Shown here: positions 760 to 63,285 of the stretch, in pieces
Numbering within the stretch: position 1 is the first letter of the stretch
How the letters are laid out: every line of letters starts with the position of its first letter
Assembly: GCF_001543145.1 (NCBI RefSeq)
Contig: NZ_CP014160.1
Location: forward strand, 1,550,001 to 1,614,000
Reading direction: 5' to 3'
Length of the DNA stretch: 64,000 nucleotides
DNA from: Aerococcus sanguinicola
Lineage (GTDB): Bacteria > Bacillota > Bacilli > Lactobacillales > Aerococcaceae
The notes under the pieces: generated by a model
What the model saw: the letters and a program-made list of their open reading frames with translations, nothing else
Databases searched by the model: none
Told to the model about the DNA's origin: nothing
Made by a program: the position numbers and the translations under genes

Positions 760-870
760 AGAGTGCGACAAAAGTCGTTAAGCTCTGAACCACTGGAATA
801 AAGGATGGAAGAGCCTTGAAGAGGCTCGGCCAACCTTTGTGAAGTGGAGTCAGAGCTGACTTTTGGAGCA
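760..870 (+). repeat. divergent copy of the ~118-bp structured repeat
   Basis: Outer arm AAAAGTC pairs with GACTTTT and inner arm AGCTCTGA pairs with TCAGAGCT. Between them is the family's internal loop (CTGGA opposite GTGAAG). The 3' conserved tail CGAACCCGACTA is not preserved, so this copy is degenerate at one end. Confidence 0.55.
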
Positions 871-914: not shown

Positions 915-1045
915 CTAGTCGGGTTCGGTCTGGCAGCTTTCGTGTCACTTCACAAGTCTCCGCCGCAGTCTTGCAGACTACTCTGGCGACTTGCTCCAGT
1001 GAACGAAAGCTAACCGCCAGCCCTCTCACCCTGAAACTTGCTTGG
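915..1045 (-). repeat. ~118-bp structured repeat, reverse orientation
   Basis: Read on the minus strand this has GGGTGAGAG, arm GGCTGGC, bulge GGTT, arm AGCTTTCG, the CTGGAGC / TGTGAAG internal loop, and the closing GAACCCGACTA. It is nearly identical to the third copy of the array at 63040-63160, which lies in the opposite orientation 62 kb away. Confidence 0.75.
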
Positions 1046-4493: not shown

Positions 4494-4550
4494 GTTGTAG
4501 GGGGCTAGAGAAATTGCTTATTTTGGATGGGGATGGGGGTGTTTTATTAA

Positions 4551-4830
4551 GAAACTGCCAATTCCCAAGGGAAAAGGCAGTAAGATCAATAGAAACTGCC
4601 AGTTCTTAAGGGAATAGGCAGTAAGAGTAATAGAAACTGCCAGTTCTCAAGAGAAGAGGCAGTAAGAGTAATAGAAACTGCCAGTTCCCAAGAGAAGAGG
4701 CAGTAAGAACAATAGAAACTGCCAGTTCTTAAGGGAAAAGGCAGTAAGATCAATAGAAACTGCCAGTTCTCAAGAGCAGAGGCAGTAAGAGTAATAGAAA
4801 CTGCCAGTTCTCAAGAGAAAAGGCAGTAAG
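4551..4830. repeat. seven tandem 41-bp hairpin repeats
   Basis: Units start at 4551, 4592, 4633, 4674, 4715, 4756 and 4797, an exact 41-bp period. Each unit contains ACTGCC...GGCAGT as an outer stem and a variable inner stem (TTCCC/GGGAA, TTCTC/GAGAA, TTCTT/GGGAA) around a small loop, then a spacer TAAGANNAATAGAA. Inner-stem changes mostly keep pairing, some through G-U pairs. The array lies between rplT and the convergent NERD gene. No gene is supported in 4400-4908. Confidence 0.9.
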
Positions 4831-44039: not shown

Positions 44040-44778
44040 AGATGAAGAATGGATTCGTAAGTGGTTGGTCTACGGTGTGGACTATGCCCAGCTGGGAGCC
44101 CTGGTGGTCGGCGAGGCCTCGAATGGTCAGGAGGGCGCAGCTTTGATCCGCGACAGCCAGCCCGACCTGGTGCTGACGGATATCACCATGCCCTTCATGG
44201 GGGCTTTTGAGATGTTTGACGCCGTGTCAGACCTGACTTTTGAGAAGATTATTATCTCGGGCTACAATGATTTCGCCAATGCCAAGGCGGCTATCCGCTA
44301 CGGGGTGGTGAACTTTGTGACCAAACCGATCGATGAAGAGGAACTCCTGGCTTCTGTCCGCGAAGCCTTGTCCCGGCTGGCACCGGAAGAGGAAAGGCAG
44401 GGTCTGGCAGATGAGCTCTTGTCTGGCCTCGTTGCAGACCCTGATGCCCTCGTCCAGGAGGTTCTCGCCTATGTCCACACCCACTTCAAGGAGAAGCTGA
44501 CCATGGCGCGGATGGCAAAGGTCCTGGTTTACAGCGAGTCCTATCTCTACCGGAAGATCAAGGCCAGTCTGACCGTTAGCCTGAGCGACTATATCCAGCG
44601 CTATCGAATTTCCCAAGCCGTCCAACTCTTAGAAGCCCAGGAAGACTTGAGGATTTCAGACTTGGCTACAGACCTTGGCTTTTCCGATTATAACTACTTC
44701 GACCAGGTCTTTAAGAAGTATGTGGGGATGACTCCCACAGCCTTTAGAAAGGGAGGCCAGGATGAGAAAACAGACTAA
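44017..44778 (+). CDS. AraC-family response regulator (HptR/YesN-like)
   Basis: The receiver domain (residues 1-120) has acidic pocket EDEE, phospho-acceptor Asp55 (LVLTDITMP), and Lys in VTKPID. The C-terminal ~100 residues hold two helix-turn-helix motifs of AraC type (SYLYRKIKASLTVSLSDYI, then LGFSDYNYFDQVFKKYVGMTP). It is presumed phosphorylated by the overlapping kinase and to activate nearby transport genes. It overlaps both its neighbours, which implies translational coupling. The target is not visible. The upstream PTS gene is one candidate. Confidence 0.9.
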   Translation: MYRIVIVEDEEWIRKWLVYGVDYAQLGALVVGEASNGQEGAALIRDSQPDLVLTDITMPFMGAFEMFDAVSDLTFEKIIISGYNDFANAKAAIRYGVVNFVTKPIDEEELLASVREALSRLAPEEERQGLADELLSGLVADPDALVQEVLAYVHTHFKEKLTMARMAKVLVYSESYLYRKIKASLTVSLSDYIQRYRISQAVQLLEAQEDLRISDLATDLGFSDYNYFDQVFKKYVGMTPTAFRKGGQDEKTD

Positions 44779-45841
44779 ATTTTGGCTGGGACTTGGCCTA
44801 GTCCTGCTCTTGCTTCTAGGCCTGGTTTATTTTCAATCAACTAGGCAAGTGGAGGAAAAAGACTCCGGTCCAGAAAAAAGCCTGGTGATTTATTCGCCCA
44901 ATTCGGAGGCTTTGTTGGCAACGGTCGTTCCCGCTTTCGAGCAGGCTTATGGGGTCAAGGTTCAAGTCATCCAGGATGCAACAGGCAAGCTTTTTGATCG
45001 ACTCAAATCGGGCCAGGGCGATCCTGCTCCAGACCTGCTTTTTGGCGGATCGAGCCTCTGGTATGAAGCTAACCGGGATTATTTTATCCCCTATACTGCC
45101 AAGGGAGCGGATAAGCTGCCAGCTATCTTCCGGTCTAAGGACCAGACCTATACGCCCTATGCCATGGAGGGGACGGTGATTTTGGCCAACCGCCAGCTGA
45201 CCCAGGATTTGACTATTCATTCTTATGGAGATTTGCTCGATCCGGCGCTCAAGGGTAAGATTGGTCTGGCCGACCCCCGGCTCTCTTCCAGTGGCTTCTC
45301 CCAATTACTGACTATTCTTTTGGCCAAGGGCGGCTATCAATCGGACGCGGCTTGGGACTATGTGCGCCAACTTTACCTGGCCCAGGAAGCCCAGATCTAT
45401 AAGGAATCTTCGGAGGTCAACCAGAGTCTCGTCCAAGGGCAAGTGGCAGTCGGCTTGTCTACAGAAGCTGTGGCCCAACAAATGATTGCCGATGGGGCAG
45501 AATTGGACTTGATCTACCCTGAGGAGGGCACCCTCTACCTGCCCGCTGCAGTCGGCATCGCCAAGGGGACCAAGCACTTGGACCTGGCCCAGGAATTCGT
45601 CGACTACCTCTTATCAGCCCCCGTCCAAAGCTCCCTAGCCGATAGTTTATACCAACGTCCCATCCTAGCTAACCAAGGCCAGACCTCCAAGCTCCGTGAC
45701 TGGCAAAGCATCAACCGCCTATCCGACGAAAGCTGGGACATCCTGGACCAACAAAAACAAATCCAAAATCGGTTTCAACAAGAGGGTGTGAAGGCTAGCG
45801 GGAGAAATAGACCTCTGGAACCAAAAGCCAGAGAAGACTGA
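44762..45841 (+). CDS. membrane-anchored substrate-binding protein (HptA-like)
   Basis: A 359-residue extracellular binding protein with an N-terminal signal anchor and no lipobox (FWLGLGLVLLLLLGLVYF). The type-2 periplasmic-binding fold shows LVIYSPNSEALLATVVPAFEQAYG, PDLLFGGSSLWYEAN, YTPYAMEGTVILANR and LADPRLSSSGF, as in Fe3+/phosphonate/hexose-phosphate binding families. With the kinase and regulator it forms a three-part sensor, with no permease gene beside it. The last ~20 codons and the TGA stop lie inside a ~118-bp structured repeat, so its native C-terminus has been replaced. Confidence 0.82.
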   Translation: MRKQTKFWLGLGLVLLLLLGLVYFQSTRQVEEKDSGPEKSLVIYSPNSEALLATVVPAFEQAYGVKVQVIQDATGKLFDRLKSGQGDPAPDLLFGGSSLWYEANRDYFIPYTAKGADKLPAIFRSKDQTYTPYAMEGTVILANRQLTQDLTIHSYGDLLDPALKGKIGLADPRLSSSGFSQLLTILLAKGGYQSDAAWDYVRQLYLAQEAQIYKESSEVNQSLVQGQVAVGLSTEAVAQQMIADGAELDLIYPEEGTLYLPAAVGIAKGTKHLDLAQEFVDYLLSAPVQSSLADSLYQRPILANQGQTSKLRDWQSINRLSDESWDILDQQKQIQNRFQQEGVKASGRNRPLEPKARED

Positions 45842-46061
45842 AAGACTTCGTCGGATTTTGGTGAAGAGGAGCTATTTCTGCTAGCCTGAACCCGACTAGA
45901 GGGTGTGAGCAAGAGCGGCTAGACTTGAATGACTGGAGCCCAAGCGGAAAAGAGCGGCTTTAGCCGATCGTTCCGATTGGGTGAAGTCACTTCAAGTCTG
46001 CTCTTGCGAACCCGACTATACAGGGCGTGAGGAAGAGGGGGTAGCTTGCATTCACTGGAGC
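45782..46061 (+). repeat. tandem array of the ~118-bp structured repeat (two full, one truncated)
   Basis: Copy 1 (45782-45899) has arms AGGCTAGC/GCTAGCCT and AGAAATAG/CTATTTCT. Copy 2 (45899-46018) has GCAAGAGC/GCTCTTGC and AGACTTGAA/TTCAAGTCT. Copy 3 (from 46021) loses its right half near 46061. All keep GGGTGTGAG or GGGCGTGAG at the left, and the full copies keep GAACCCGACTA at the right. Copy 2 is nearly identical to the first copy at 62801 apart from its outer arms, where both sides changed together. Confidence 0.9.
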
Positions 46062-46120
46062 AAATGAGATTCAGGTAAGCAGTACTTAAAGCTTTTCTAC
46101 TTGCATATGGAAGGTCTATA

Positions 46121-46327
46121 TGCAAATAGCGAGAGTGAATTTGCGCTCGACAACTTTATGTGCAAATTGGGAGTGTGAATTTGCGTTCACGAGCTTTGAG
46201 TGCAAATTGAAAACATGAGTTTGTGCTCGACAACTTTATGAGCAAATTGGGAATATGAGTTTGCGTTCGGCAGCTTTATGAGCAAATTGGGAATATGAGT
46301 TTGCGTTCATCAGATTTGAGTGCAAAT
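46121..46327. repeat. five tandem 40-bp hairpin repeats
   Basis: GCAAAT recurs at 46122, 46162, 46202, 46242, 46282 and 46322 with an exact 40-bp period. Each unit forms a hairpin GCAAATT...(A)TTTGC and has a spacer such as GTTCGGCAGCTTTATGA. The array immediately follows the truncated ~118-bp repeat. Confidence 0.85.
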
Positions 46328-46776: not shown

Positions 46777-46792
46777 ATAGGCAGTTGAATAT

Positions 46793-46900
46793 CTATCTTC
46801 AGGGCAGGGTGCAAGTCCCTACCGGTGGTAAAGCCCACGAGCCGCAAGGTTGATTTGGTGAGATTCCAAAGCCGACAGTATAGTCTGGATGAAAGAAGAT
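46793..46900 (+). promoter_or_regulatory. FMN riboswitch (RFN element)
   Basis: The conserved RFN core is present: ATCTTCAGGGCAGGGTG at the 5' end, then CCCTACCGGTGGTAAAGCCC, GAGCCGC, GATTTGGTGAGATTCC, GCCGACAGTATAGTC and the closing GGATGAAAGAAGAT. FMN binding switches off the downstream biosynthesis genes. Confidence 0.95.
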
Positions 46901-46924
46901 CGAAAGAAGAAATTAGCGCTTTTG

Positions 46925-50605: not shown

Positions 50606-52474
50606 ATGACTGATCAAGAATTGCGTTACCAGCCGGGGACCTACCAGGTGGAGGCAGCTGGCCATAACAGCGCTTTGCCTATGGAGGTTGAGCTCTCGGA
50701 AGACCGGATTGAACGGATCGAAGTTGATGCCAGTTCGGAGAGTAAGGGGATTGCCAACCCGGTATTCGTCAAGGTTCCGGCTGATATCATCGAAGGGCAG
50801 ACCTTGAATGTGGATGCCGTCTCAGGAGCAACGGTCTCCAGCCAAGGGATTATTGATGGGGTAGCCGAAGCTGTGCGCCAGGCCGGAGCTGATCCCGAAG
50901 TCTTAAAAGCTCGTCCTAAGGTCCAACACCAGGCAGCCGAAGCCCTGGAAGAAACGACAGATGTCCTCGTGATTGGGGGCGGGGGTGCTGGTTTAGCCGC
51001 TGCTGCCTCAGCTATTCAAGCAGGCAAGCAAGTTATCGTCCTGGACAAGTTCCCAGCTATTGGGGGCAATACCGTGCGAACAGGGGGACCGATGAATGCG
51101 GCTGACCCAGACTGGCAAAATCAATTTGCTGCTTTGCCAGGCGAAGGGCATACGCTAGAAGAGATTGCAGCGACGCCTGAAGCGGAGATTGATGACGAAT
51201 ACTTAGAAGACTTCCGCGAACTTCGCCAACAAATCCAAGACTATTTAGAAGCTAATGAAGAAGGGGAGGCCTATCTCTTTGACTCGGTTCTCCTTCACCG
51301 CATTCAAACCTATCTGGGTGGCAAACGTGAAGACTTGTCTGGTAACCGGGTTTATGGTAACTATGACTTGGTTAAGACCTTGACAGACAATGTTTTAGAC
51401 AGTGTGAACTGGTTAACTGAGCTTGGTGTGGACTTCGACCGCGACCATGTTGATATGCCAGTGGGGGCTATGTGGCGGCGGGGTCACAAGCCACGTTCCG
51501 ATGAAGGCTATGCCTATGTCCACGCCCTTGAGAGCTTTATCGAAAAAGAGGGGGGCAGCATTTATACGGAAGCTGATGTGACTGAGCTGATCCAAGACGA
51601 CCAAGGCCAAGTCGTCGGCGCAAAAGGGACCTATCAAGGCGCGGCCATGCGGATCGAAGCCCAGGCTCTTGTTTTAGCAACGGGTGGTTTCGGGGCCAAT
51701 ACCCCCATGCTCCAAGAGTATAATACTTACTGGGAACGGATTGATGATGATGTGAAGACCTCTAATTCGCCAGCGATTACAGGTGACGGCATCCGTCTGG
51801 GCCAAGCAGTCGGCGCTGACCTAGTGGATATGGGCATGATTCAGATGCTGCCAACCTGTGACCCAGAAACAGGTGCCCTCTTCACAGGTCTCCAAGTCCC
51901 ACCCGCTAACTTCCTTATGGTTAACCAGGAAGGCCAACGTTTCGTTAATGAATTTGGCACGCGTGATGAGATTTCAGCTGCGGCGATCGCTAATGGTGGC
52001 CTCTTCTACCTGATTGCGGATGAACGCATCAAGGCTACGGCCTATAACACCAGCCAGGAAAAGATTGACCAACAAGTTGCTGACGGGACCCTCTACAAGG
52101 CCGATACGGTCGCAGATTTGGCTCGGCAGATTGATATGGATCCTGAGCAATTGGAAGAGACTGTGAAAAAATATAACTCTTATGTGGAAGCTGGAGAAGA
52201 CCCTGACTTCAACAAAGGAGCTTTTGATCTCAAAGTAGAGGAAGCCCCCTTCTATGCAACGCCGCGCAAGCCGGCCATCCACCATACCATGGGCGGCTTG
52301 CGGATCAATAGCCAGGCCCAAGTCCTCGATGCAGATGGCCAAGCGATACCAGGTCTCTATGCGGCAGGTGAAGTAGCAGGCGGTATCCATGCAGGCAACC
52401 GCTTAGGCGGCAACTCCCTAGCCGACATCTTCACCTTCGGACGAATCGCTGGTCAAGAAGCCAGTCAGTCCTAA
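50606..52474 (+). CDS. flavoprotein reductase with FMN-binding domain (fumarate/urocanate reductase type)
   Basis: Residues ~10-90 are an FMN_bind domain whose [10 protein letters not shown] motif (Thr76) is the site where ApbE attaches FMN covalently. From ~115 comes an FAD-binding domain ([18 protein letters not shown]), a substrate domain, and a C-terminal [15 protein letters not shown]. The family reduces fumarate, urocanate or related enoates as electron sinks. No signal peptide is present, so it is cytoplasmic. GAGGGGAAG precedes ATG 50606. Placement right after the riboflavin operon fits its double flavin need. The exact substrate cannot be read. Confidence 0.87.
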
Positions 52475-52476
52475 CA

Positions 52477-52905
52477 GGGTGAGAGCAAGAGCGTTTAGCT
52501 TTGGATGCTTGGAGTAAGTTAGGATAAGGGCAAGCATCGCTTGCACGTTCCCAACTTGCGAAAGCACTCCAAAGCTGCTCTTGCGAACCCGACTAGAAGG
52601 GTGAGAGAGGATGCGTTTAGAAAGGGACCTCTGGAGCAAAAGGACAGAGAAAGCTATAAGCTATCGACGGCCTTTTGTGAAGAGGAGCCCTTTCTGCATC
52701 CTCGAACCCAACTAGAAAGGGTGAGAGCAGAGGCGGTTAGAAGCTTAGCACTGGAGCACGAACGAAAAAGGGCAAGCCATGCTTGCACGTTTTGATCGTG
52801 TGAAGTGGAGAAGCTTCTGCCTCTGCGAATCCGACTAGAAAGGGTGAGAGCAAAGGCGTTCAGAAGCTTTGCACTGGAGCACGAGCGAAAAAGGGCAAGC
52901 CTATT
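52477..52905 (+). repeat. tandem array of the ~118-bp structured repeat (three full, one truncated)
   Basis: Copies start at about 52479, 52598, 52717 and 52841. Outer arms are GCAAGAGC/GCTCTTGC, GAGGATGC/GCATCCTC and GCAGAGGC/GCCTCTGC. Inner arms are AGCTTTGGA/TCCAAAGCT, AGAAAGGG/CCCTTTCT and AGAAGCTT/AAGCTTCT. The fourth copy is cut at ~52900. The array starts three bases after the reductase stop codon. Frames seen across it on either strand are artefacts of the repeats. Confidence 0.92.
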
Positions 52906-53172
52906 TAGTTTTGGATTGTTCAAACTTAAGACAAGAGACTGCTTAGAAGGGCTAGTCTCTTGTCTTTTTATGGCACAACGTAAAGTAATCTAACGTATTA
53001 TGTTATGCTTCATCCATTCTTATAGCAAAAATAAGCAATTTGTTTCAATATCACGCGTCAATTCGCCTTATCAGTAAAAGATTATTTTATTTACGATATG
53101 TTTTATAACATAAAATTTTTAGATTATGATAAAATAGTAAGTAAATAAAACTGATTAATGCGAGGTGCGCTT
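52906..53172. other. AT-rich region upstream of the glutamate symporter
   Basis: An inverted repeat (AAGACAAGAGACTG with CTAGTCTCTTGTCTTTTT, 52925-52970) can act as a terminator for the upstream unit. A TATGAT-like -10 stands near 53126, but no good -35 is seen. No gene is supported. Confidence 0.5.
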
Positions 53173-62146: not shown

Positions 62147-62797
62147 ATGAAAATTTTAGTTACAGCTTTTGATCCTTTTGGTGAAGATAAGATCAACCCG
62201 GCCACTGAAGCCGTCAAAACACTTCCTGACCAAATTGCCGGAGCAGAAGTCATTAAGTTAGAAATTCCGACAGTCTTTGTGAAAAGTGCGGAGGTTGTGA
62301 GCCAGGCCATCGCAGACCATCAACCTGACTATGTGGTCAATGTGGGCCAGGCAGGGGGACGCTATGCCTTAACCCCAGAACGGGTGGCTATTAACTGGGA
62401 TGATGCCCGGATTGCGGATAACGAGGGCAAGCAACCCATCGACCAGCCTATCCAAGCGGACGGCCCAGCAGCCTACTTCTCCAGCCTCCCTATCAAAGCT
62501 ATGGTAGCGGCTATTAAGGAAGCCCAACTGCCTGCAGAAGTCTCTAATACAGCCGGCACCTTCGTCTGCAACCACATCATGTACCAGACCCTCTACCTGA
62601 TCGACAAGACTTATCCCGAAGTTAAGGGCGCCGGCTTCATCCATATCCCTTACCTTCCCGAACAAGTCGTGGACCGTCCCAACACCCCATCTATGGGCCT
62701 CACCGACATCAGCCGAGGCCTAGAAGCCGCCATCTCAGCCATCGTCGCCTATGACGGCAAAGAAGACCTCCACAGCGTCGGAGGAAAAACGCATTAA
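62147..62797 (+). CDS. pcp: pyroglutamyl-peptidase I
   Basis: A cytoplasmic cysteine peptidase removing N-terminal pyroglutamate from peptides. Family motifs are [10 protein letters not shown], the catalytic Glu in [14 protein letters not shown], the catalytic Cys in [11 protein letters not shown], and His in [10 protein letters not shown]. At 216 residues it is full length. It ends the DUF969-DUF979-pcp operon, and a structured-repeat array begins seven bases after its stop. Confidence 0.96.
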
Positions 62798-62800
62798 ATA

Positions 62801-63185
62801 AGGGTGAGAGCAGTTGCGCCTAGACTTGAATGACTGGAGCCCAATCGGAAAAGAGCGGCTTTAGCCGATCGTTCCGATTGGGTGAAGTCACTTCAAGTCT
62901 GCAACTGCGAACCCGACTATAGGGTGTGAGGGAGCGCGGGTAGAAGTGGACCGCTGGAGCAAAGCGACAGAGAAGACTGAAAGTCTTCGACGGCGCTTTG
63001 TGAAGAGGAGCCACTTCTGCGCGACCGAACCCGACTAGGAAAGGGTGAGAGGGCTGGCGGTTAGCTTTACTTCACTGGAGCAAGTCGCCAGAGCAGTCTG
63101 CAAGACTGCGGCGGAGACTTGCGAAGTGACAGGAAAGCTGCTAGCACGAACCCGACTAAAGGGTGCGGGGGCTGGCGGTTAAATT
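62801..63185 (+). repeat. tandem array of the ~118-bp structured repeat (three full, one truncated)
   Basis: Copies start at about 62801, 62920, 63040 and 63163. Outer arms are GCAGTTGC/GCAACTGC in copy 1, GGAGCGCG/CGCGACC (imperfect) in copy 2, and GGGCTGGC/GCTAGCAC (one mismatch, one G-T) in copy 3. Inner arms are AGACTTGAA/TTCAAGTCT, AGAAGTGG/CCACTTCT and AGCTTT/AAAGCT. The last copy ends after AGGGTGCGGGGGCTGGCGG. No gene is supported between pcp and 63632. Confidence 0.92.
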
Positions 63186-63285
63186 GACCAAGATCCAATT
63201 AAATGCTGTGATTGTGGGTCAATGATGACCAACATTCAAATAGAGCTTTCGATTGTGGGTTGACATACTGAATAAAACCATCCCC

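Follow-up and report, generated by a model that had tools for sequence, protein, structure and literature searches.

A covarying hairpin repeat placed behind stop codons in Aerococcus sanguinicola, with relatives in other genera of Bacilli

The genome of Aerococcus sanguinicola carries a repeated unit of about 118 nt that forms, on its sense strand, one long hairpin with covarying arms. The sense strand folds better than its complement, the units lie mainly just behind stop codons, and they are joined in one-way arrays with cut-down copies at the 3' end; between sister species most of the units at shared sites have been replaced, and another genus contains identical dispersed copies. We favor the interpretation that this is a 3'-UTR hairpin, spread by mobility or by recombination, in which the folded sense strand is what counts. 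Put as a family of non-autonomous, probably transcribed interspersed elements with hairpin units behind stop codons, the proposal has, in our estimate, an even chance of being right.

Hairpin units in the window

The window is the whole 64-kb stretch that was analyzed (G000:C1:1550001-1614000), part of a 2.03-Mb single-contig genome, G000. The nine full copies reported in an earlier note, which was made from the sequence alone, are all present among matches to model R1, which was built from 44 copies of G000. R1 finds ten matches in the window, namely, the nine full units and one divergent unit, and three further copies, read from the sequence, open with the 5' motif near 46023, 52842, and 63161 and retain the left arm in part. 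The features are as follows.

763..869, plus strand: divergent unit (R1, 67.8 bits, model positions 3-110)
916..1031, minus strand: full unit, GGGCTGGC subtype (R1, 115.7 bits)
45784..45898, plus strand: full unit, first of array (R1, 111.3 bits)
45901..46018, plus strand: full unit, GCAAGAGC subtype (R1, 117.7 bits)
46023..46062 (end approximate), plus strand: 3'-truncated copy with 5' motif GGGCGTGAGG and left arm (read)
52477..52595, plus strand: full unit (R1, 113.2 bits)
52599..52714, plus strand: full unit, GAGGATGC subtype (R1, 113.3 bits)
52719..52837, plus strand: full unit, GCAGAGGC subtype (R1, 97.7 bits)
52842..52902 (end approximate), plus strand: 3'-truncated copy, left arm to about the apical loop (read)
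52928..52969, plus strand: terminator-like hairpin with T run, 3' of the array (by eye)
62802..62919, plus strand: full unit (R1, 118.1 bits)
62922..63037, plus strand: full unit, GGGAGCGC subtype (R1, 110.6 bits)
63043..63158, plus strand: full unit, GGGCTGGC subtype (R1, 106.6 bits)
63161..63182 (end approximate), plus strand: 3'-truncated copy (read)

Two of the three plus-strand arrays begin immediately after a gene: the unit at 52477..52595 starts 2 nt past the stop codon (52472-52474) of ORF 50606-52474, and that at 62802..62919 starts 4 nt past the stop codon of ORF 62147-62797. The unit at 45784..45898 is overlapped by 58 nt (distance, -58) by the upstream ORF 44762-45841. By eye, a similar remnant occupies the place of the copy at 63161..63182 in the sister species G003.

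Fold and covariation

The hairpin has the 4-base bulge, the AG/CT helix end, the 5-bp helix, and the TGGA/GAA loop as first described, and it is closed by a GGGT/ACCC foot with a GNGA/GA loop that was absent from the first description. The loops (GNGA/GA at the foot, the 4-nt 5' bulge, and GGA/GA in mid-hairpin) are fixed, and the arms vary freely and covary. The RNA fold of 62801-62920 has a z score of -10.8, with none of 200 shuffles as good.

The claim that the helices change on both sides together is borne out within the genome and, in a larger alignment, across genera. In alignment A1 (one genome), 25 of 34 pairs given by RNAalifold changed on both sides. Paired cells made up 95.9% of A1, compared with 68.2% when shuffled and 33.6 to 45.4% when partners were slid, a comparison biased in favor of structures that were drawn from the alignments on which they are scored. 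The covariation score of A1 was 0.680 against 0.177 in shuffles, with related rows counted many times in this and the other covariation figures; neither the paired share nor this score was matched in any of 500 shuffles. Further pair types in A1 were not above shuffles (335 of 500 as high). Alignment A3, a sequence-based alignment of 36 units from G000 and other genomes, has both sides altered in 22 of 25 pairs, 91.8% of cells paired (62.0% in shuffles), and a covariation score of 0.759 (0.193 in shuffles). These results support the reading of the first description, a structured repeat under selection for its fold.

Columns invariant across genera are mostly loops and their closing pairs, including TG..A at the foot, CG before the bulge, and TGGA with an A of GAA in the middle. 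Measured at fixed offsets from the unit ends, the outer arms depart from perfect pairing at four or more of eight positions in 22 of 205 units, and several units with mismatched outer arms resemble, by eye, recombinants between subtypes. Units end in GGGTG on one side and GACTA or AACTA on the other; in other genera, the ends are GAGTG and others and TTTA and others.

Copy number and distribution

A search of the whole G000 genome with R1 gave at least 150 matches, and a search of 75 loci (about 15% of the genome) chosen around high-scoring copies gave 212. After exclusion of the seven weakest matches (21.4 to 37.9 bits, some with internal deletions), 205 units were kept, all at distinct places and a few of them partial. 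They form 95 chains, 32 of single units and 63 arrays of 2 to 6 units, and cover 23,906 bases, at least 1.2% of the genome. Among the matches listed, spacing within arrays is 2 to 5 nt, once 17 nt, and gaps of 121 to 248 nt fit further units in between.

R1 found the element in 11 of 15 Aerococcus genomes, 40 of 76 genomes in the family, and 68 of 395 in the order. With model R2, it was found in 19 of 398 genomes in the class, and families outside the order showed copies in tandem; of 398 genomes drawn across the phylum, G000 alone had it, and the other 397 gave no match. Because the draws overlap and the larger searches were filtered more strictly, these counts are lower bounds on the range. 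Carriers recognized by pattern in 24 stretches include Jeotgalibaca, Trichococcus, Desemzia, Carnobacterium, and a Streptococcus strain; the Streptococcus stretch (L224), the one pattern stretch checked by model, has two units. Relatives of the element occur in other genera across Bacilli.

Two queries of a phage collection gave no match. Four viral contigs match a short pattern and none a second pattern, and R2 found no unit in the stretches of the four that were examined. In plasmid records, three element queries gave matches confined to Aerococcus tenax CP127381, with one query giving none at all; this 591-kb record carries dnaA and rpoB and so looks like a piece of chromosome. The earlier note recognized no known family in the element, in agreement with Rfam, which has no match to any element in the window, its only match there being an FMN riboswitch (46791-46904; 120.3 bits). 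At five loci searched with E values of up to 10, Rfam gave six weak matches, all below threshold and all outside the elements (positions 1501-1620). A description of the element was not found in the literature, searched among open-licence papers, which is weak evidence of novelty.

Which strand is folded

RNA parameters make the sense strand more stable than its complement in 199 of 202 distinct units, and DNA parameters do so in 195 of 202. In the paired columns of 146 out of 150 copies, there are 4,564 Watson-Crick cells, 201 G.T, 38 A.C, and 160 others; when columns 38-83 and 39-82, in which G.T is common, are dropped, 61 G.T remain against 38 A.C. Since the copies are related, neither the strand stabilities nor the G.T and A.C counts are independent observations. 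The excess of G.T over A.C argues against a two-strand cruciform, which predicts equality. The fold had been proposed to act "as RNA or extruded DNA": selection on the fold stands, and, of the two forms, the strand asymmetry and the sense placement described below favor a single strand. The evidence favors one folded sense strand under selection, an asymmetry that fits RNA and single-stranded DNA alike. As the sense strand folds better, one strand seems to be selected, and that strand is most likely RNA, the units being probably transcribed.

Position relative to genes and terminators

Genes were called with a simple codon-usage ORF caller script, and neighbors were judged for 92 of the 95 chains, the other three being near the edge of the available DNA. 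The upstream gene is on the same strand in 76 chains and on the opposite strand in 14; in 2 chains, there is none within 1.5 kb. Sixty of the 76 same-strand chains start between -25 and +10 nt from the stop codon, 44 of them at 0 to 5 nt, 1 at 7 nt, and 15 at -1 to -22 nt, where the reading frame ends inside the unit; the unit at 45784, at -58, is a further same-strand case. Within 300 nt, 42 of 92 chains have a terminator-like hairpin downstream and 9 have one upstream; by eye, a few first units start directly after a T run resembling a terminator. Standing just behind stop codons, usually in the sense direction and often before a terminator, the units would join the 3' UTR of the mRNA. Targeting could account for the placement, and so could selection against other sites.

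Similar placement is seen elsewhere. Aerococcus tenax has 26 matches on 300 kb (read from tables), with clusters 6 to 10 nt past the stop codons of lysS, rplL, trpB, and two other genes; other matches are antisense to both neighbors. In other genomes, a same-strand ORF of at least 80 codons ends at -25 to +12 nt of the unit start at 24 of 62 loci, some of which are inner units of arrays, compared with 111 of 2,480 random positions. At none of the 62 loci does the 3' end of the unit coincide with the end of an opposite-strand ORF.

Polarity and turnover of arrays

The 5' motif, called at 7 or more of 9 bases, recurs within 8 nt after the last unit in 63 of 94 chains, compared with 26 of 2,000 random positions. 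The likeness of these cut-down copies to the unit extends for 8 to 68 positions, about to the apex, and 56 of the 63 have the left arm only. The other 7 show a right end close by as well: five have lost an internal part, and for two the sign is a weak motif. Before the first unit, 1 of 94 chains has the 3' motif when at least 9 of its 11 bases must match; when 7 suffice, 7 of 94 have it, as expected by chance (137 of 2,000 random positions). Simple decay is no explanation for copies that stop at the apex. First units have a median R1 score of 112.9 against 109.1 for last units, and the first unit outscores the last in 41 of 63 arrays.

The sister species G003 is 91% identical to G000 over one gene. 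Over about 395 kb compared, 11 loci have both flanks, and 9 of them are occupied in both species, six directly behind the G000 stop codon (259518, 346414, 504608, 1602477, 1612802, and 1628697). The site at 519497 is empty in G003, and the locus at 323799 is without units there. A motif script extracted 23 G003 units from eight of the nine loci (none at 269639, with others hidden by N runs); among the G000 units compared, the nearest one at the same locus was the best match for 1 of the 23 and the second best for 3. The rarity of nearest units at the same locus indicates that most, not all, units differ between the species. At 1602477, G003 has the shared unit in first place and G000 has it in second, which agrees with growth at the stop-codon end. 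The locus at 346414 speaks against this: the local unit of closest similarity comes first in G003 but is the final full unit of the array in G000, an order not given by simple growth at that end. By eye, the 3' cut-down copy looks shared in about six of the nine loci.

In G201, from another family of the order, nine dispersed copies among the matches listed have identical 93-nt cores. Each copy is part of a 171-bp stretch with a terminator-like hairpin at its end, and seven of the nine start -8 to 20 nt from a same-strand ORF end. Insertion into preexisting terminators, suggested by complementary-looking flanks in G201, was unsupported (1,291 of 5,000 permutations as good). No general target duplication (TA or longer) was seen when junctions were compared by eye; one clean empty site has, by eye, a possible 5-bp repeat.

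Proposed explanation and alternatives

In the favored interpretation, the folded molecule would be RNA, and some activity would mobilize units, while recombination between arrays would swap them. New units may tend to enter at the stop-codon end and older units at the far end to lose their right arm, steps for which one locus speaks in favor and one against. Hosts might tolerate the units because a compact hairpin past the stop codon would leave the message intact or shield its 3' end. Counting against the proposal, the upstream gene has the other orientation in 14 of 90 chains, the families searched yielded no transposase or other partner, and neither long terminal inverted repeats nor a general target duplication were seen. 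A more specific version is tentative, and we think it somewhat unlikely to hold in full: a Bacilli-wide mobile hairpin, recognized in folded form as RNA or single-stranded DNA and driven by a host activity, would insert in the sense direction behind stop codons, build one-way arrays, and leave half-hairpin remnants at the far end.

Alternatively, the unit may be a single-stranded DNA hairpin recognized by a recombinase. Integron attC arrays have a conserved fold, free arm sequence, and fixed extrahelical bases, and they run one way. The present units resemble them in all these respects, keeping the fold rather than the sequence, and the strand asymmetry fits single-stranded DNA as well as RNA (195 of 202 with DNA parameters). 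No cassettes were seen between units, and an attC-like site would not be expected to stand behind stop codons in the sense orientation. No integron integrase over the TIGR02249 cutoff was found in any of 11 genomes; weaker matches to the wider recombinase family occur in all 11 and likewise in 14 control genomes. We consider this alternative unlikely.

The units could also be a host 3'-UTR RNA element, regulatory or protective, spread by recombination rather than by mobility of its own. The occupation of the same sites at 9 of 11 comparable sister-species loci, the placement behind stop codons, and the tandem G.A loops, which are typical of protein-binding RNA, are as such an element would have them. 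Most units at the shared sites differ between the two species, however, G201 has identical dispersed copies, and no units were seen in 4 of 15 Aerococcus genomes, of which two are just 85% complete. Nor does any gene family recur beside units in many genomes beyond common ones, the largest being an ABC transporter family. On balance, we regard a host element of this kind as similarly unlikely.

A REP/RAYT or IS200-type element, or a MITE of a DDE insertion sequence, would be similar in size, copy number, and palindromy, but it is very unlikely, since Y1_Tnp has no match in six Aerococcus genomes with many units (G000, G002, G003, G010, G011, and G012) and the ends, GGGTG and GACTA, are without long terminal inverted repeats. 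The only inverted repetition near the unit ends is the GGGT/ACCC pairs, and GTAG or CGTC at the palindrome end, a REP trait, is absent from them. Y1_Tnp is present in 36 of 76 genomes of the family, some of them carriers. RVT_1 was found in six of 11 genomes searched, including G000, and not in the carriers G002, G011, and G012. As required partners, Y1 transposase, reverse transcriptase, and integron integrase are not common to the carriers. That arm covariation arose without selection through quasi-palindrome repair during replication, which can copy one arm onto the other, is hardly credible, because such repair would tend to erase asymmetric loops, which are among the most conserved parts and are observed to be kept while the arms vary.

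Relation to known repeats

ERIC and YPAL of enterobacteria are interspersed repeats of a similar kind, 127 and 168 bp long, with strong folds; they are cotranscribed or cotranslated with their neighbors, and YPAL targets span or adjoin dyad symmetry (PMC2229807). They belong to another phylum, and the portions of PMC2229807 drawn on here describe neither one-way tandem arrays nor covarying subtypes. BOX, RUP, and SPRITE of pneumococcus are likewise interspersed elements of a Lactobacillales genome with predicted RNA folds, SPRITE being terminator-like (PMC3049150; PMC10969869, a review). BOX, as described in the parts of these sources used here, is a composite of boxA, boxB, and boxC with tandem modules, in contrast to the single 118-nt hairpin repeated in Aerococcus. 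REPs are palindromic repeats as well but measure 20 to 40 bp and end in GTAG or CGTC, compared with about 118 nt here; the CGTC palindromes, according to the account consulted, are also without a dedicated transposase (PMC3733652).

If transcribed, the unit would be part of the message 3' end for dozens of genes. The element is unannotated and would be a new RNA family for annotation. It would also be a natural case for studying how repeats become placed at stop codons, and arrays with a stop-codon end and a remnant end offer a record of how palindromic repeats spread without a known transposase. As the arrays differ between species that are 91% alike at one marker gene, they may serve in strain typing.

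Other repeats near the units

Several other repeats lie close to the units. Just 3' of the array at 45784 is a tandem array of 4.3 copies of a 40-bp unit (46136-46308), and GCAAAT-bearing repeats also follow the array at genome position 497272. A second tandem array, with 6.9 copies of a 41-bp unit, lies at 4550-4830. At about 600-915, a second, longer repeat (from about TTTCAGAGGGTCAAGAACGGC) ends beside the minus-strand unit, and similar sequence comes after the units at 519497 and 346414. The array at 62802 and several other arrays, including some in the sister species, are followed by short repeats such as CAACATTCA and GATTGTGGGTTGAC (about 63180-63260 in the window). At L167 (G000:C1:996297-996411 and downstream), several tandem copies of the unit's 3' end, GAACCCGACTA, come after the unit itself.
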